Below, piece after piece: positions 29,884 through 37,704 of a stretch of 64,000 nucleotides of DNA. A program made the position numbers and the translations under genes. The notes below the pieces were generated by a model, which searched no databases, was not told where the DNA came from, and worked only from the letters and a program-made list of their open reading frames with translations. The stretch's first letter is position 1. Each line of letters begins with the position of its first letter. The DNA is from Parapedobacter soli (GTDB lineage: Bacteria > Bacteroidota > Bacteroidia > Sphingobacteriales > Sphingobacteriaceae): positions 1 to 64,000 of the forward strand of contig NZ_JAMXAY010000004.1 of the NCBI RefSeq assembly GCF_025460835.1, in the 5' to 3' direction.

Positions 29884-29923
29884 CATTAAAAACAACAAAC
29901 CCCGGCCGAAGCCAGGGTTCGTT
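29884..29923 (-). terminator. Terminator of the lysis-like operon
   Basis: On the minus strand a 13-base stem (AACGAACCCTGGC / GCCGGGGTTTGTT, two G-T pairs) with a TTCG tetraloop, followed by GTTTTTAAT. It begins 21 bases past the stop codon of the last gene. Confidence 0.88.
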
Positions 29924-29943
29924 GTACCATCAAATAGGCATGC

Positions 29944-30465
29944 TTATCGCTTCCACAGACGCCATACGAGATAAATAACGCCACAAACGACCCCCAGCCA
30001 CACCCACCAGGGAATTTTCAGTAGCGGCGAAACATCAGCCTCCTGCTGCTTCATACGCGTATCCCGTTGTACGGCGGTATGTTCACGCGTTGCCGCCAAG
30101 GCTGCCGAGCTATCCACAACAGCAATCGCTACGTCTGACTCGGCCGCCGCTATTCTCCCGCTATTCCGGTGGATGACCACCCGTTCGGCCTGCCCCACGT
30201 AGCCGCTATCGACACTCAACCGGAAGGTGCCTACGGGGATGATCTCTGCCACGTTACTCGCATATTCCAGCCGGATGCTGGCCGAGCTCGTCTGCTCAAG
30301 CCGACGCAACCGCCTTTCCTGTTTAGCCGTCTGCCCTACGCGGGTATGCAACGCCGTCCGTTCGTTGGTCGACTGCTTCCGCGTAGCGCAACCGGCCAGC
30401 AGACCAATCAATATGGCCACTATGCGCACCATAACCTTTATCGCCTCCATCGTCCCAGCTGTCAT
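29944..30465 (-). CDS. Spanin-like lipoprotein with C-terminal TM helix
   Basis: A 173-residue protein: n-region and hydrophobic stretch VRIVAILIGLLAGC with lipobox LLAGC (Cys 26), a polar body of helix and sheet (about 30-145), then one C-terminal TM helix IPWWVWLGVVCGVIYLVW and a basic tail RLWKR. Anchoring in the outer membrane by lipid and in the inner membrane by a C-terminal TM is the topology of phage unimolecular spanins. Its ATG at 30465 overlaps the stop of the upstream gene by ATGA; the much longer frame upstream of it reads through that gene out of phase. It is last in the four-gene operon. Confidence 0.75.
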   Translation of the reverse strand: MTAGTMEAIKVMVRIVAILIGLLAGCATRKQSTNERTALHTRVGQTAKQERRLRRLEQTSSASIRLEYASNVAEIIPVGTFRLSVDSGYVGQAERVVIHRNSGRIAAAESDVAIAVVDSSAALAATREHTAVQRDTRMKQQEADVSPLLKIPWWVWLGVVCGVIYLVWRLWKR

Positions 30466-31097
30466 CGGGCCAGGATACTTACCGGCTCCGTCCAGTCGCT
30501 CGCGCCCACGCCGTTCTTGGCCCGTACGCGTACATAGTACTCCACCCCTTTTTGCAGGGGTGCCAACACGTTGATGTTGCTCCGGGGCGTATCCAATATT
30601 TCCACAGGCCATACCAACTGGCCGTTCGCGTCCACCTCGTCGGTATATTGATACTCATAGAGGCGCACATTATCCACAGCTTCAAAGTCGAGCCTAGCTT
30701 GTCCTTTTTGCCGGTAGTCGGTCAATGTCACCCACAGCGGCGTTTGGGGCGGCACCGATTTGGTAGGCAGGGCAACCGGGCGGAAGCCGCTGCTCAAAAT
30801 TACAGACAATGCACCGTCGGCGGTCTTGTTTACATAAAAAGCAAGCTGTCTCAATAGCTCGATCAACACCTCACGGCTGTCGTTTTTCAGGCTAAAGTCC
30901 AGCGGGCTTCCCTTTCGGTTCGCCATTTCCATTTTTTCACGGAAATCATCGGTCGCCGTCAGCACCGTAGCGAGATCGGGATCGGGGGTTGCAAAGTATG
31001 CATTCCCATCCATCGCCGCGTGCACGGTATAGCCAAAGGTCAATAATTCCTGGTCTTTCATGTGTTTAAAGCCACTCCTGGCTATTCTTTTTTTCAT
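30462..31097 (-). CDS. FnIII-domain protein of the lysis-like operon
   Basis: A 211-residue protein without a signal peptide. Residues about 13-105 form a helical domain (DQELLTFGYTVHAAMDGNAYF, then NDSREVLIELLRQLAFYVNKTADG) seen with small FnIII proteins of Bacteroidota; residues about 120-211 are one fibronectin type III domain (FEAVDNVRLYEYQYTDE, EYYVRVRAKNGVGASDWTEP). A second in-frame ATG at 31061 is also possible. FnIII domains in phage-like operons usually bind sugar or protein surfaces; its role here is unknown. Confidence 0.8.
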   Translation of the reverse strand: MKKRIARSGFKHMKDQELLTFGYTVHAAMDGNAYFATPDPDLATVLTATDDFREKMEMANRKGSPLDFSLKNDSREVLIELLRQLAFYVNKTADGALSVILSSGFRPVALPTKSVPPQTPLWVTLTDYRQKGQARLDFEAVDNVRLYEYQYTDEVDANGQLVWPVEILDTPRSNINVLAPLQKGVEYYVRVRAKNGVGASDWTEPVSILAR

Positions 31098-31162
31098 TTT
31101 TTTGCGTTTTTGTTATTTGCTTTTTGCTTTTTTGCTACTCATTTATTCGCTAGTTCACTCGG

Positions 31163-31639
31163 TCAATTGGCCCATCGCGATACCGCGCGAATCGTTTTTA
31201 TCCATCGCCGCTTACGCACCACGGCATTGTTCACATTACCTTCCACAGTAATCACCCACTTCCCATCCCACTCATCCACGAAGCCACAATGGGCAATCCG
31301 CTTTTTGGAAGCGACGTAAATGCCGAATACGTCACCTGCCTTTGGTTCTTGGTTTCTCAATCGCGGCGCGTTCGTCCAAATAATATTTTGAGATGGAAAA
31401 AGCGCTGCCGCCCACGCATTCCGCGGCTCGGTATATCCGGCCTGGCCATAGCACCAGCTTACGAATGCCGCACACCACTCGTAGCCTTCGCCCAAGCCGC
31501 AGTAATGCAGGTACTGCCCTACTCGCGGACCATCATTGTTACCGGCCGCTTCCTGCACGCCGATCTCAGCACGGTAAACGGCAGGCAGCCCATCACGCAC
31601 TATTTCCGCTCCTGGCTCCAACGTCTGGCGGCTAATCAT
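31163..31639 (-). CDS. CHAP-type endolysin-like amidase/peptidase
   Basis: A 158-residue murein hydrolase of the CHAP (NlpC/P60-related) superfamily. The catalytic Cys is C56 in YEWCAAFVSWCYG, His is H117 in KRIAHCGFV, and the third residue is N135 in TVEGNVNN. The ATG at 31639 is chosen because it forms TGATG with the stop of the holin-like gene; the frame runs 27 codons further upstream to 31720, but that part overlaps the previous gene out of phase. Without it there is no signal peptide, so export would need the holin-like protein, as in phage lysis. Confidence 0.85.
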   Translation of the reverse strand: MISRQTLEPGAEIVRDGLPAVYRAEIGVQEAAGNNDGPRVGQYLHYCGLGEGYEWCAAFVSWCYGQAGYTEPRNAWAAALFPSQNIIWTNAPRLRNQEPKAGDVFGIYVASKKRIAHCGFVDEWDGKWVITVEGNVNNAVVRKRRWIKTIRAVSRWAN

Positions 31640-32112
31640 CACACTAACGCTACCAACGCTACTACCAAGCCCCAGAAGAGCGATAGCAAGAGCAGCAGGT
31701 AATACCCAATTTGCTTCCATGGTTTCAATACGTTAAAAGATGAGCGGAAATCCGCGCGGTCGAATCCCGCGAGGCGTTTAAAGAATACCCATACCAGCCA
31801 AGCAGCCATGAGCCAAAAGAAACCGACAGCAAGCGCAGCCAGCACAATGATGCTGAGCACGCCGATATCGGGTACGGCCGCTGTTGTATCGAGCCACCAT
31901 AGTAGCGGCCCGAGGTATAGGAATAAAATCAATAAAAGCGGTACGCCTACGAGCGGCCAAGGGAAAAGCCGCGGTTCGGGGCGTACCGCTTGTTCATGGA
32001 GGAAATCCACATAGTCCTCCGCATCGTCCACCTTGCGCAGCCGGCGCTCTGCCGGTTGGCTTGCCGGCTTCTCCAGCCGCAGGTGTCTGTTCATTATTGT
32101 TTGCTGTAACAT
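31639..32112 (-). CDS. Three-TM holin-like membrane protein
   Basis: A 157-residue protein with a charged cytosolic N-terminus (about 1-45) and three hydrophobic helices: PLVGVPLLLILFLYLGPLL, VLSIIVLAALAVGFFWLMAA and GYYLLLLLSLFWGLVVALVA. Size and topology resemble class I holins. No family signature can be confirmed by eye. It is the first gene of the operon, coupled to the CHAP gene by TGATG, and has a canonical promoter upstream. Confidence 0.7.
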   Translation of the reverse strand: MLQQTIMNRHLRLEKPASQPAERRLRKVDDAEDYVDFLHEQAVRPEPRLFPWPLVGVPLLLILFLYLGPLLWWLDTTAAVPDIGVLSIIVLAALAVGFFWLMAAWLVWVFFKRLAGFDRADFRSSFNVLKPWKQIGYYLLLLLSLFWGLVVALVALV

Positions 32113-32136
32113 AAGCGTTTAATTTTTTTGTTACGG

Positions 32137-32167
32137 CAAACATAGACTCCACCACTAGCCGCTCAAA
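32137..32167 (-). promoter_or_regulatory. Promoter of the lysis-like operon
   Basis: Minus strand TTTG (32164-32167), 19-base spacer, TATGTTTG (32137-32144): a near-ideal Bacteroidota vegetative promoter. The predicted transcript start is near 32131, about 20 bases from the first start codon. Confidence 0.75.
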
Positions 32168-32219: not shown

Positions 32220-33446
32220 TTACGGTGCTTTCAGCCGTTGTTCCAATTGCTTTTTCAGGTAAATCTGCAATAGTTGCCGCTGTTCCGGTTCTAGTTTTTC
32301 TTTAAATACCCGCATAATAGTTGTCGTTGCGAAATAGGGCAATTCATTATGTTTAGTGTAATATGTGAGCCAATAGGTAGCAGCAGCCTCTCCTTGGGAT
32401 TTCATCAAACCAAATAATGCTACATGACGCCATCCGTTTGACATTTCCCTTAGAACAGGTGACATTTTCCCCAATGAATAGCGAGATACCTCGACATCGC
32501 GAAGTAGTGTCAAGGCTTCCGCATAACGGCCATACCACACGAGTAAAAACGCCTTCTTAAAATTCAAGTTAGCAACCGTGGTGCTGTCCCTATTATCTCG
32601 TATTTCTCGATAGATGTTTTCCAAGGCAAGCTCAGGTTCAAGGCCTAGATACGGGTCGTAATCAAAAATCTCAGAGGCAAATGTCCAGTGCTGGTATTGT
32701 GCCTGCGTGGTACGCAGGAAATGATTTGCCTTCTCCCGATCGTGCTTGAGATAGGCATAGAATTTCAGGCGAAGCCCAAAATCCCGCCGTTCGGGGAAAG
32801 CTACAATCAGCGAGTCGGCGTGGGCCAAAGTTTCGTTTAGGGGTCGTTTTTTTTGATTGTCTATGTTGTCGCTATAAGCCTCTTCAAAACGCTCCTGACG
32901 CCGCTGCAATTCGCCGGTCTGCGTATGGCCGCCCATTGATTGCTGCACTACATAATCTAAGGCAGCAAAATCACCCGATCCTTGCCATACCAATCTTCCC
33001 TTGCTGTCTATAAGATAAAGAACTGGAAACGCCGGAATGCCTCCCCACGATAGGTTGACGGATCGATCGCGCGTATCGAGTGCTATGGTATATTCCATAC
33101 GGTCTCCCATGTTTTCTTTCAGTGTTAAGATCGCACTACGATATGCCGCTTCCGTTCGCTTATCACGTGGGTAATAGGTGTATATACTTACTACCTCCAG
33201 ATAACCGGCATATTTCTTCTGCAAATCTGTGAGATGCGGGATCGCTTCCCGACAGGGCTTACAGGCCAAGTGCGTAAACTCTACCAGATACAACATATTA
33301 GGCTCAAAGGAGGTCACCGGTCCCCCGTGCAACCATTCGGCCACTTCCAAAGGGGGAACCTTCTCCCCTACTTCCAGTTGCGGCTCCTGAGCAGTAAGTA
33401 GACCCGTCATCATTAGGCCTACAAGTATTAGCATCAAATTTTTCAT
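32220..33446 (-). CDS. TlpA-like thioredoxin-domain protein
   Basis: A 408-residue exported protein (signal KNLMLILVGLMMTGLLTAQ). Residues about 30-165 form a thioredoxin fold with ACKPC (C62, C65) and the cis-proline region IPAFPVLYLID; the C-terminal half is helical with no recognised domain. TlpA proteins reduce or isomerise disulfides in the periplasm. It is the third gene of a SusC-SusD-TlpA set. Confidence 0.88.
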   Translation of the reverse strand: MKNLMLILVGLMMTGLLTAQEPQLEVGEKVPPLEVAEWLHGGPVTSFEPNMLYLVEFTHLACKPCREAIPHLTDLQKKYAGYLEVVSIYTYYPRDKRTEAAYRSAILTLKENMGDRMEYTIALDTRDRSVNLSWGGIPAFPVLYLIDSKGRLVWQGSGDFAALDYVVQQSMGGHTQTGELQRRQERFEEAYSDNIDNQKKRPLNETLAHADSLIVAFPERRDFGLRLKFYAYLKHDREKANHFLRTTQAQYQHWTFASEIFDYDPYLGLEPELALENIYREIRDNRDSTTVANLNFKKAFLLVWYGRYAEALTLLRDVEVSRYSLGKMSPVLREMSNGWRHVALFGLMKSQGEAAATYWLTYYTKHNELPYFATTTIMRVFKEKLEPEQRQLLQIYLKKQLEQRLKAP

Positions 33447-33460
33447 TTAATAGTCTTTTG

Positions 33461-34849
33461 TCAATAGTCCGGATTTTGTATCAAAAATGGGTTCGCTTCG
33501 AGTTCTCGCTGCGGGATGGGCAATAATAGGTCGTTGCGTCCCCAGCGTTTCAAATCTGCCCAGCGATGACCCCACTCGTAGGTAAACTCAATGAGCCGCT
33601 CCCGCTCAATGACGTCCATTACTGCGCCAGCTTCTAATCCCGCCAGTGGTTCTAATCCGCTATGTGCCTCGCGCACCGCATTCACGTCGGCTATCGCGCC
33701 ACCCACGTCGCCCTGCTTTAGCCGCGCTTCTGCCCGGAGCAGGTAAGCCTCCGTTAGGCGCAATACCATACTGTATTCATCTGGTCGTTCGCCCATAGGG
33801 CTCTGCCGGATTTTATACTTGGCAACATAATTATAAACATCGACCCCATTGGGCATGGTATAACTGCCTACCCATTCCCGCAGGCGCAGGTCTGCTGGTT
33901 CCAGCGCGTCCAGCACCTCCGCGGCATAACTATACCGGGGTGGCGTGGTTAATGCGTCATTCGGAAGCGCCTGTGCTCCCTCGTGCGAAGCCCGCGAATT
34001 TTCCAATACGAATAGTTGCCAGATAGCTTCATGGTTATTTTTTAGGTACACCTCTTCAATTGGCACTAAATCATACCATCCGGTTTGCCCGATTACCGCA
34101 GCCGCCGCATCTCCCGCTTCCGCCCACCGTTGCTGGTAGGCGTATACCCTCGCCAACAGCAGTTGGGCTGCCCAGCGATTGGGCCGTACCCGCTCATCCA
34201 GCGCATGACTATAATCCCCTGGCAACAGGTCGACCGCTTCTTTCAGATCGTTCTCCACGTGATCATAAACCACCTGTGGGGCGGACCGGGGCAACTGCTG
34301 CGTTACCCGGTAATCGCTCGTAAGCACCAACGGTACCCCGCCGAACAACTGCACCAGTTGATGGTGACAGAAAGCCCGCATAAACAGCGCTTCCCCGCGC
34401 AATTGCGAAGCCAATGCGGCCGTTACGCCCCCGTATGTCGCTAACCCATCCAACACCTCATTGGCTTGAAAAATCGTTTTATATGCGCTCGCCCAGAGGG
34501 TATTCACCGCGTCATTGTCGGGCAACCAATTTCGCGCAGCGAATTCACCTACATTGGCACTATTCAGGTTATACAACAATACCCCGGCAGCCACGTCCGT
34601 CAAGGCCGTTACGCTATTATCGCCCCCATTCGCAAAGTGGCTAGTTCGGGACACCATGATATCCTGGTAGATAGCCGCCACCGCTCCATTTGCCAGCGCA
34701 TCATCCTGAAATACCGCTTCCGGCACGAGCTGATTATGTGGCATATCCACTGCAAGGTACGATTCGCAGCCACCCAGCGTGATTACGATCGCGACAAGTA
34801 CACTTCGGATAGCTACTACTTTATTTTTCTTTCTATTTAAGCTATTCAT
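33461..34849 (-). CDS. SusD/RagB-family nutrient-binding lipoprotein
   Basis: About 462 residues. Signal and lipobox lie in VAIRSVLVAIVITLGGC, followed by ESYLAVDM. The helical body has TPR-like repeats (GEALFMRAFCHHQLVQLFGGVPLVL, WAAQLLLARVYAYQQRWAEAG) and the C-terminal signature ERLIEFTYEWGHRWADLKRWGR. The start at 34849 is chosen because it gives a proper signal; the longer frame overlaps susC. Surface-exposed, it closes over the SusC channel at 34873-37704. Confidence 0.93.
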   Translation of the reverse strand: MNSLNRKKNKVVAIRSVLVAIVITLGGCESYLAVDMPHNQLVPEAVFQDDALANGAVAAIYQDIMVSRTSHFANGGDNSVTALTDVAAGVLLYNLNSANVGEFAARNWLPDNDAVNTLWASAYKTIFQANEVLDGLATYGGVTAALASQLRGEALFMRAFCHHQLVQLFGGVPLVLTSDYRVTQQLPRSAPQVVYDHVENDLKEAVDLLPGDYSHALDERVRPNRWAAQLLLARVYAYQQRWAEAGDAAAAVIGQTGWYDLVPIEEVYLKNNHEAIWQLFVLENSRASHEGAQALPNDALTTPPRYSYAAEVLDALEPADLRLREWVGSYTMPNGVDVYNYVAKYKIRQSPMGERPDEYSMVLRLTEAYLLRAEARLKQGDVGGAIADVNAVREAHSGLEPLAGLEAGAVMDVIERERLIEFTYEWGHRWADLKRWGRNDLLLPIPQRELEANPFLIQNPDY

Positions 34850-34872
34850 TATAAAATGACATTTATGGTTTA

Positions 34873-37704
34873 TCAAAACGTTAGCTGTATACCTCCCGTA
34901 ATCACCCGCAATAACGGCAGGTTCAAACCACCCACTTCGGGATCCAGACGATTCCGGCGATCGTGTACCCAGAGGTTCTGTCCGTTGACCGATAGTCGTA
35001 AATGCTGTATGCCCAGTGCCTGGCACCACGTTTCCGGCAACTGCCACGCCAGTGCTACATTTGAGAGTCGTACGAAAAAAAGGTTTTCCAGCCAGGCATT
35101 GCTATTAAAACTCAGGTAGCTATGCTGGGTGTAATATTCGTTAAAGCCAGTCGAAAACCGTTGGATCGGTTTTTCATCGCCCGGATGCTGCCAACGATCC
35201 ATCACCCCTATGGGTTGATTACCGATTGCCGCTCCGGGGGCGGCAAACGCCTGTTCATAACGACGTTCTCGTTTATCTAATTGCAGTGCGACACTGATTG
35301 TTATCCCACCATAACGAAAGCTATTCTGCACGCCACCATAAATGGTACGGTATTTATCGCGCCAGATACGGTCGGCATCGTTGGCACTGCCGTTTCCGTC
35401 CACGTCGTCAAATTCATACTTTCCGGTCTCGGGATTTACGCCGACGTAATGATATACCCGGTTCCGATCCATGCTTTCACCAACCTGATACGTTGTTGCA
35501 TAACTACTCGCCGCGATGTTTGGATATGATAATAATTTGCGCTGGGGGAAACTCAGGTTAACTGCAGTATTCCACTCGAATTGGTCGCTTCGCAGGTTAA
35601 CCGAATAGACCTCCATCTCCCATCCGCTGTTCTGCACCTCGGCGGGCAAGTTAAACTGAACAGACGTAAAGCCGCTGATGGCGGGCAGTGGATACCCCAC
35701 CAACTGGTTACCACTCCGGTTGCGGTACCAAGCCAGAGTGCCGCGGACCCGATTATCCAGCACGCCGATTTCAAGTGCCGTTTCGAGCTTCCGGTTGGTC
35801 TCCCATTGATAGTCGGCATTGGCCAAGCGGGTGGGGGTAACCCCTGATACCTGATAGAGAAAGGAGTTGCTAAACGAATAAGCGGCAAGGTAGCCATAAT
35901 CATCAATCTGGTCACTGCCCGTAATGCCATAGCTGGCCCGTAGCTTGCCAAACGATAACCATGGCAGCGCGCGCTTTATGCCAACCTCCTCGGCAAACAA
36001 CCAAGCCGCCCCCACCGCACCGAAATTGCCCCAACGTTTGCCCGGCCCGAAGCGGCTACTGCCATCCCGCCGCGCCGTCAGGTTTAGAAAATAGCGGTCG
36101 TTTAATGCGTAATTGATGCGCGCAAAGGCCGCGAGGTAACGGTATTCGGTCTGCGGATTACTGTTAAACTGAAGCAGATCAGCTGCTCTTTTGTTGCGCA
36201 GAAGTTGTTCATTGGCAAAGCCGAATGCCCGGAACGCATGGCCTTCACTGTCCATCTGTTGAAACGTACTGCCCACCAACGCGAGCAGGTGACCGGGGCC
36301 TATCCGCATACGATAAGTCGCTTGAGGCTCGATATTCCAAGTAATCAACCTATTATCTTTCCACTCCACTTGGCTTTCCGGATTTAACGCTGGGTTCCGC
36401 GTACTGCCGGGGTTTGTCAATTCTTCATCCATCTCCAGTTGGTTAAACCCTATATTCACCTTCAATTCCAGCCGCTCCCATACTCGGTAGGCCATTGATG
36501 CCAGCACATTGCTGTTGCGATTAGTCTGGTCGTAAGGCTGGCGCAGATACCCCATCGGGTTGTTGTTGAAGGTAGTGCCCGGCCAATTGATATCCCCGTT
36601 TTCGTCAAGCATGTCTGGCGCATTTGGGGGGAGGGTCAGTGCCAATGGGGTGATATTATTGCGGAAGTTGGGCAAGTTCGTGTGATCCTGGCTGTAGGTG
36701 ATGGCCAGTTGTGCCCGTAGGCGGTCGTTTTCTCCTCCAGTACTGAGTGATGCATGTCCGCTTCCGCGCCTATAGCCGAAGTCGCCGGGGTAAACATTGC
36801 CTTGTTTCAAAAAACTGCCGCTGAGCAGGTAGCGCACCGCACTGCTGCCCCCACTCAACGAGGCTCGGGTGTCCGTGCGACCTGCTGTGCCACCCAGTAG
36901 TGCCCGCTGCCAGTCGGTATATTTGGTTTGATCATATTCCAGCAAGTCGCGCGCTGCGTTGCCGGTCATCGAGGCCGAGGGGGTATTGGCGTACGCTTCC
37001 CGCCGCATTTCCAAATATTGCTCGGTATTGAGCAAGTCCATGAATTTGCGCACTTTCCCTGCGCCGAAATTGGTGCCGACCGTGAGGCGGGCTTTTCCAA
37101 GCTGACCCATTTTTGTGGTGATTAGCACAACCCCATTGGCCCCACGGCTTCCGTAGATGGCCGTGGCATCAGCATCCTTGAGCACCTCAATGCTGGCGAT
37201 ATCACTTGGGTTGAGGGTGTTGAGCGGATTGGATTGAATGTAACCGCCCGGCTGCTGCAGGGAAGTTGAAGTGAACGGCACCCCGTCAATCAGATACAGC
37301 GGGTCATTTACACCTGGATCGGACCGTAAACTGTTCTGTCCACGGATGCGAACGGTAAATCCGGCACCGATTTCACCATTTTGTTGCTGGATGTCTACAC
37401 CGGCCATGTGGCCTTTGAGGGCTTCCAACGGATTTAGGACAGGTTGTTGCTCGATTTCTTTTGCCGTTACACGGGCGATGCTTCCGGTCCGTTCGCGGTC
37501 TTTCACAGTATAGTACCCCGCATTGATTTCTACTTCTTCGATGGCGAGCGTGTCCTTCCGTATGTTGACGGTATCTGCGCGATAGCCCGTAGCCGCGGGG
37601 GCCGGCGTGTTGCCGGCCGCCCAGGCACAGGTGCTTACGCATGGAAAGGACAGGATAAGGGCATAGCCAGCCCGTATGAATAGGTGTTGTTTCTTATTCA
37701 TCAT
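34873..37704 (-). CDS. SusC/RagA TonB-dependent transporter, short N-terminus
   Basis: A 943-residue outer-membrane transporter. After the signal peptide it has a TonB-box-like region (DTLAIEEVEINAGYYT), a plug with ALKGHMAGVDIQQQNGE and VLKDADATAIYGSRGANGVVLITTK, and a 22-strand barrel ending in ITGGIQLTF. The carboxypeptidase-D-like N-terminal domain usual in SusC is absent. The cargo is unknown; peptides or glycans are both possible given the downstream TlpA gene. Confidence 0.93.
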   Translation of the reverse strand: MMNKKQHLFIRAGYALILSFPCVSTCAWAAGNTPAPAATGYRADTVNIRKDTLAIEEVEINAGYYTVKDRERTGSIARVTAKEIEQQPVLNPLEALKGHMAGVDIQQQNGEIGAGFTVRIRGQNSLRSDPGVNDPLYLIDGVPFTSTSLQQPGGYIQSNPLNTLNPSDIASIEVLKDADATAIYGSRGANGVVLITTKMGQLGKARLTVGTNFGAGKVRKFMDLLNTEQYLEMRREAYANTPSASMTGNAARDLLEYDQTKYTDWQRALLGGTAGRTDTRASLSGGSSAVRYLLSGSFLKQGNVYPGDFGYRRGSGHASLSTGGENDRLRAQLAITYSQDHTNLPNFRNNITPLALTLPPNAPDMLDENGDINWPGTTFNNNPMGYLRQPYDQTNRNSNVLASMAYRVWERLELKVNIGFNQLEMDEELTNPGSTRNPALNPESQVEWKDNRLITWNIEPQATYRMRIGPGHLLALVGSTFQQMDSEGHAFRAFGFANEQLLRNKRAADLLQFNSNPQTEYRYLAAFARINYALNDRYFLNLTARRDGSSRFGPGKRWGNFGAVGAAWLFAEEVGIKRALPWLSFGKLRASYGITGSDQIDDYGYLAAYSFSNSFLYQVSGVTPTRLANADYQWETNRKLETALEIGVLDNRVRGTLAWYRNRSGNQLVGYPLPAISGFTSVQFNLPAEVQNSGWEMEVYSVNLRSDQFEWNTAVNLSFPQRKLLSYPNIAASSYATTYQVGESMDRNRVYHYVGVNPETGKYEFDDVDGNGSANDADRIWRDKYRTIYGGVQNSFRYGGITISVALQLDKRERRYEQAFAAPGAAIGNQPIGVMDRWQHPGDEKPIQRFSTGFNEYYTQHSYLSFNSNAWLENLFFVRLSNVALAWQLPETWCQALGIQHLRLSVNGQNLWVHDRRNRLDPEVGGLNLPLLRVITGGIQLTF

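Follow-up and report, generated by a model that had tools for sequence, protein, structure and literature searches.

Lysis genes of tailocins and gene transfer agents either act for a particle or come from a recognisable gene cluster, and colicin-type bacteriocin operons encode a cytosolic toxin without an export signal together with a small lysis lipoprotein. The described cases of lysis genes that were taken from phages and domesticated include those of tailocins and gene transfer agents as well as the explosive-lysis endolysin of P. aeruginosa (PMC7815802, PMC13236601, PMC4834629). In phages themselves, holin, endolysin and unimolecular spanin (u-spanin) can form one cassette; the T1 gp11-type u-spanin has a lipobox, a C-terminal transmembrane (TM) segment and no periplasmic cysteine, and u-spanins are often paired with pinholin/SAR-endolysin systems (PMC6139136).

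In a stretch of 64 kb from Parapedobacter soli, hereafter the window, four intact open reading frames follow one another on the minus strand (29944-32112). A sequence-only reading had taken them for a lysis cassette without a phage. Gene order and u-spanin topology are common to this cassette and the phage holin-endolysin-u-spanin cassettes of the T1 gp11 type, whereas the cassette in the window lies free in the chromosome, belongs to a multi-copy set and includes a partner gene (FnIII or DUF6266) that is absent from 50 viral loci. As in pinholin/SAR-endolysin systems, the holin-like protein is small with several TM segments and the endolysin has an N-terminal hydrophobic segment rich in Gly, Ser and Ala. 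With tailocins, gene transfer agents and P. aeruginosa explosive lysis the cassette has in common that lysis genes of phage origin appear to have been kept by the host for release; in those cases, however, the genes work for a particle or stem from a recognisable pyocin or gene transfer agent cluster, while here there are no particle genes nearby and about 20 copies are possible per genome. With colicin-type operons it shares a cytosolic protein without an export signal that is encoded together with a lysis function, but no toxin or immunity domain was found in it, and a full holin-endolysin-spanin set takes the place of the small lysis lipoprotein.

The first gene (31639-32112, 157 aa) encodes a holin-like protein in which the three predicted TM segments were found at residues 54-72, 83-101 and 139-157. 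Three hydrophobic segments are also present in 97 of 125 members of its family. The protein matched no holin family in Pfam, PHROG or NCBIfam; it is a small multi-TM protein whose gene adjoins an endolysin gene, as for holins, and its homologues stand directly upstream of CHAP endolysins on 50 viral contigs. The gene directly upstream of gene 1 belongs, in several copies of the cassette (L071:4880-5323, L194:4180-4644, L072:4892-5296 and L070:5103-5633), to a family of proteins about 130-150 aa long whose N-termini are similar (as in MKKQFLKYPFTTAGVVLWQ); two members of this family were compared with Pfam and gave no match.

The second gene encodes a CHAP endolysin (Pfam CHAP, E 4.6e-9; PHROG 'endolysin', E 9e-9), so that the domain proposed for it was recovered, while the start proposed at a TGATG joint was not. 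Very probably the gene begins instead at the ATG at 31720, which yields a protein of 185 aa (31163-31720) and an overlap of 82 nt with gene 1 (31639-31720). An in-frame Met giving this 82-nt overlap is found in 58 of 78 genomic gene 1-gene 2 pairs, and in a further 10 the Met gives 79 nt; among 50 viral pairs, the two overlaps occur in 12 pairs each. The ATG sits within CCATGG, the codons for a Pro-Trp pair that the alignment shows to be conserved in gene 1. Counted from this start, the catalytic residues are C83, H144, E160 and N162, the Cys, His and Asn being those read before as C56, H117 and N135. All four are almost invariant among 158 relatives, with C83 in 155 and H144 in 154 of them. 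The nearest relatives of the CHAP protein in the window are about 69% identical at best, so that any orthology of this particular copy with those of other genomes is tentative.

The start at 31720 also adds a hydrophobic N-terminus (residues 11-29) to the protein. Because of this segment in the longer protein, the enzyme probably exports itself, the N-terminus serving as an export or anchor segment. Residues 11-29 are a candidate for either a SAR-like or a cleaved export segment, and several relatives resemble cleaved signal peptides.

The third gene (30462-31097, 211 aa) encodes a protein with neither a signal peptide nor a TM segment. Its AF2 model (pLDDT 89, pTM 0.53) shows a helical bundle (residues 15-102) and an FnIII domain (residues 117-211), the arrangement of the two domains being uncertain as judged by the pTM value. 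The FnIII assignment, which had been made from the sequence and which falls below the threshold in Pfam (E 1e-4), is clear in the model and in the comparison with FnIII structures (Foldseek, E 2.6e-6). Neither Pfam, the model nor Foldseek produced a toxin match for gene 3, as a colicin-like protein would give. The earlier suggestion of toxin release is thus left without a toxin domain in the FnIII partner, while release of a protein or of DNA is a possible use.

Gene 4 (29944-30465, 173 aa from its ATGA start) encodes a lipoprotein with a C-terminal TM segment, as had been described; the lipobox is LLAGC, the single TM segment spans residues 149-167, there is no periplasmic Cys, and the gene also has homologues in phages. 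Lipobox and C-terminal TM segment occur together in 40 of 50 relatives, and a periplasmic Cys is missing in 35 of 40. By its topology, gene 4 therefore appears to encode a unimolecular-spanin-like protein. It should be underlined that the profile for gene 4 is weak, so that its absence from a given locus says little.

A promoter and a terminator frame the four genes, both largely as reported before. The promoter (32137-32167, minus strand) lies about 25 nt 5' of gene 1 and fits the Bacteroidota pattern TTTG/TAnnTTTG with the sequence TTTG-N19-TATGTTTG. Six exact TTTG-N18..22-TAnnTTTG sites were found in the window as against 1.6 expected, and none of 100 shuffled sequences reached six. All six sites are on the minus strand. 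The intrinsic terminator (29892-29925, minus strand) is a hairpin with a 15-bp stem followed by a T-run (-26.3 kcal/mol, z -5.7). Genes 3 and 4 are joined by ATGA as proposed, while genes 2 and 3 stand 65 nt apart, so that not all joints are coupled.

The neighbours of the cassette are largely as previously stated. Upstream lie SusC-SusD-TlpA-like genes (32220-37704, minus strand), which were compared with Pfam; the TlpA-like gene gave no Pfam match at 1e-4 and is named so from the sequence-only reading and the sequence itself. Downstream are genes for an FAH hydrolase and a pyruvate carboxylase. Pfam recognised no phage structural, packaging or integration gene among the neighbours compared with it. 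Likewise, no integrase, structural gene or att-like feature was seen in the flanks read around the chromosomal copies, nor were phage genes found by eye in regions of 7-12 kb around most copies in Sphingobacteriaceae. FAH and pyruvate carboxylase are 84-89% conserved in three congeners, in which everything beyond FAH differs, so that these genomes provide no clean empty site.

What a single window could not have revealed is the presence of several copies of the cassette in this genome, which measures 5.17 Mb and is assembled in 177 contigs. Complete copies are present on C112 (the window), C24 and C128; genes 1-2 at the start of contig C118 and genes 3-4 at the end of C92 are probably one split copy, and gene 3 also occurs alone. 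Gene 1 was found in 30 of 101 Sphingobacteriaceae genomes. One genome of another genus, G019, has about 20 copies of gene 1 and about 30 matches to gene 3. These loci were gathered through similarity to CHAP or gene 1, so that loci lacking both are under-counted, and the few occurrences of gene 1 beyond the family are a minimum, as the phylum-wide search scored at most 14 candidates per genome.

Related CHAP genes were also found at 79 viral loci, with gene 1 directly upstream in 50 and gene 4 present as well in 4. Three of the viral contigs were checked for phage genes, and they encode terminase and tape measure (L108), portal (L113), and tape-measure matches with a weak portal match (L124); the remaining IMG/VR contigs are counted as viral on the word of the collection. 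The homologous phage context, together with their own features, indicates that genes 1, 2 and 4 correspond to holin, endolysin and spanin, respectively. In a quick tree of 122 CHAP domains, one group of 61 (SH-aLRT 94) took in nearly all chromosomal copies that have a partner, and L108 and L113 were its nearest viral rows. A second tree, from which long and partial rows had been taken out, was likelier with the 60 chromosomal rows as one clade (p-AU 0.966); as this clade was chosen after the first tree had been seen, the value means that one clade is not rejected, rather than proved. Selection appears to be purifying, since dN/dS, calculated for three pairs of copies, lay between 0.07 and 0.41 in each cassette gene that was compared, with gene 3 the most constrained (0.07) in the pair for which all four genes were compared.

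A separate group of loci, L080-L091 (Fulvivirga, Marivirga, Aquimarina), has the same holin-CHAP pair embedded in a conserved gene cluster, most of whose members are unnamed, in nine genomes. The genomes belong to several families, one being labelled as a Rickettsiales MAG that is probably misbinned, and the CHAP proteins form one group (SH-aLRT 100). This cluster may be an unrecognised prophage.

In many relatives, DUF6266 (PF19781) stands in for the FnIII gene, often as one or two copies just upstream of gene 1. The DUF6266 model consists of helices and an FnIII-like sandwich (pLDDT 83; Foldseek FnIII, E 1.5e-4), and comparison of its profile with that of the gene-3 FnIII family revealed no homology. 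Gene 3 and DUF6266 accordingly share an architecture, both models ending in an FnIII-like sandwich, and kinship between them is not proved. A partner of either kind is located next to gene 1 at 24 of the 28 best loci of related genomes as against none of 50 viral holin-CHAP loci (p 3e-16), and at 18 of 20 loci in G019. Gene 3 had no match in 50,697 phage records and none in plasmid records. Scans of viral sequences with single FnIII or DUF6266 sequences, which reach close relatives only, also found nothing. The FnIII family does not depend on the cassette, as it exists without lysis genes both in the genome of the window and in other families.

Three DUF6266-like genes in tandem were seen in OP209177.1 (L187, 8038 bp, deposited as a tailed phage), a record that also encodes a tail-fibre-like protein and a CHAP endolysin; this is a hint that the DUF6266 partner, too, may have a phage past. 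No mention of DUF6266 was found among the open-access PMC papers searched. FnIII or DUF6266 genes also pair with a DUF5675 gene at loci without the lysis trio (L024:1754-2838, L208:3998-5210 and L209:1741-3544), DUF5675 being confirmed by Pfam in L024 and L208 and assigned by sequence likeness in L209. A functionally unannotated phage family, phrog_1501 (E 7e-17), is related to DUF5675, which might be an alternative lysis partner. Furthermore, short repeats (in translation VRIHVGFRPIHVGVARSVLRF) form a long tract at L026:5400-6186 on contig C171, upstream of an FnIII-family gene and in the same open frame.

With regard to regulation, the region of 7-8 kb around a copy in G019 contains an HTH_17-like gene in 15 of 24 cases (controls, 0 of 20) and an ECF sigma gene in 12 of 24 (controls, 1 of 20). 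The HTH and ECF profiles were built from genes beside cassettes, with 6 ECF and 4 HTH seeds among the 24 copies, and controls came from one genome; the enrichment is therefore suggestive and not more. At one locus of G019 (L214), the order SusC-SusD-TlpA-HTH-FnIII repeats that of the window, which itself has no HTH gene; identities to the window are 42% for SusD, 32% for TlpA and 51% for gene 3.

Taken together, our reading, with moderate confidence, is that the cassette is a phage-type lysis operon that became domesticated; it is one of several paralogues in this genome and belongs to a family with many copies whose centre is Sphingobacteriaceae. As predicted from its genes, the operon would in all likelihood lyse the cell that produces it. 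That the host has domesticated it, as the sequence-only reading had suggested, is likely, and this agrees with the phage-linked homologues, the fit to a single clade, the purifying selection and the location outside prophages in the flanks read. Whether the FnIII protein is cargo is a more doubtful matter: it is encoded in the operon and carries no export signal, which is consistent with such a role, but we consider the role possible at best, as the FnIII family also occurs without lysis genes.

The phage ancestry of the trio could also mean that the lysis genes are left over from integrated phages, as in a decaying prophage or a satellite remnant. Genes 1, 2 and 4 do have linked phage homologues, and DUF6266 relatives were found in a phage-like record of 8 kb alongside a tail-fibre-like protein and a CHAP endolysin. 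However, neither a structural gene nor an integrase is found in the flanks read, where the neighbours are SusCD, FAH and pyruvate carboxylase, the reading frames are intact with dN/dS below 1, partner-bearing copies group together instead of being scattered among the viral rows, and neither the phage records nor the viral loci yielded the FnIII gene. On the basis of context, intactness, selection and tree we rejected a remnant, which we hold to be quite improbable. The small satellite remnant once suggested is likewise not supported, since integrase, structural and att-like features were not seen in the flanks read and a single origin fits the many intact copies that have a partner. Still less probable, to the point of being hardly credible, is that the cassette serves as a release device for extracellular contractile injection systems (eCIS) or tailocins whose genes lie elsewhere in the genome. 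The genome of the window does have an eCIS locus on contig C103 (L028, G000:C103:34000-53000), where a CIS_TMP tape measure (PF19268, 5e-92), an eCIS_core protein and a protein with muramidase and CHAP domains were observed. Among 101 Sphingobacteriaceae genomes, however, both gene 1 and eCIS occur in 5, gene 1 only in 25 and eCIS only in 18 (p 0.44), and no eCIS match was obtained in G019, the genome richest in copies. With co-occurrence thus absent, eCIS release was rejected, and the proposed release of tailocins or other contractile particles was not borne out.

Two further readings accept the trio as functional and differ in its purpose, and we consider both unlikely to a similar degree. 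One is an abortive or defensive suicide module that answers infection or envelope stress, the FnIII or DUF6266 protein being a sensor or a brake. This would agree with lethal genes that stand alone under regulation as multi-copy, divergent paralogues, and with the presence in G019 of HTH or ECF regulators and of SusCD loci close to the copies; SusC-type proteins are phage receptors in some Bacteroidota. On the other hand, known defence genes were not seen to cluster with the cassette in the flanks read, and neither the four proteins nor a DUF6266 relative matched any PADLOC family, by which a known defence system was discarded. The other is a non-lytic envelope device, in which membrane protein, CHAP hydrolase and lipoprotein would reshape the envelope, for instance for assembly or export of the FnIII protein, while the cell stays alive. 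The endolysin's own export segment and the nearby SusCD outer-membrane loci fit such a device, whereas the closest relatives of the trio are in phages, where lysis is the only role expected.

Returning to the domesticated lysis operon, its genes suggest how it may work. From its own promoter, the cell would make a three-TM holin, an exported CHAP endolysin and a periplasm-spanning lipoprotein. The holin would permeabilise or depolarise the inner membrane, the endolysin would cut the peptidoglycan, and the spanin-like protein would breach the outer membrane. A fraction of the cells, probably a small one, would lyse on cue, and the cytosolic FnIII protein, lacking an export signal, would be freed along with other cell contents. 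Altruistic lysis that releases the FnIII protein is plausible in this light. A more far-reaching scenario, which we put forward as speculation with rather low confidence, is that a single captured lysis cassette was copied many times in Sphingobacteriaceae, each copy forming a 'lysis secretion' unit with its own cytosolic FnIII/DUF6266 product and its own HTH or ECF/SusCD wiring, so that a few cells burst on a nutrient or surface signal and thereby deliver this product.

No description of the operon was found among the open-access PMC papers searched, and the results suggest that a captured phage module for self-lysis has been put to a use that nobody has described. Known domesticated lysis genes are mainly found in tailocins, gene transfer agents and defective prophages, whereas here a complete set for inner membrane, wall and outer membrane appears to stand alone, conserved and amplified, with dedicated partner proteins. 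Two orphan families, the unnamed FnIII family and DUF6266, would gain a testable context should the proposed function hold. If the operon acts as we infer, programmed lysis would be a regular and multiply encoded trait of a large environmental group.
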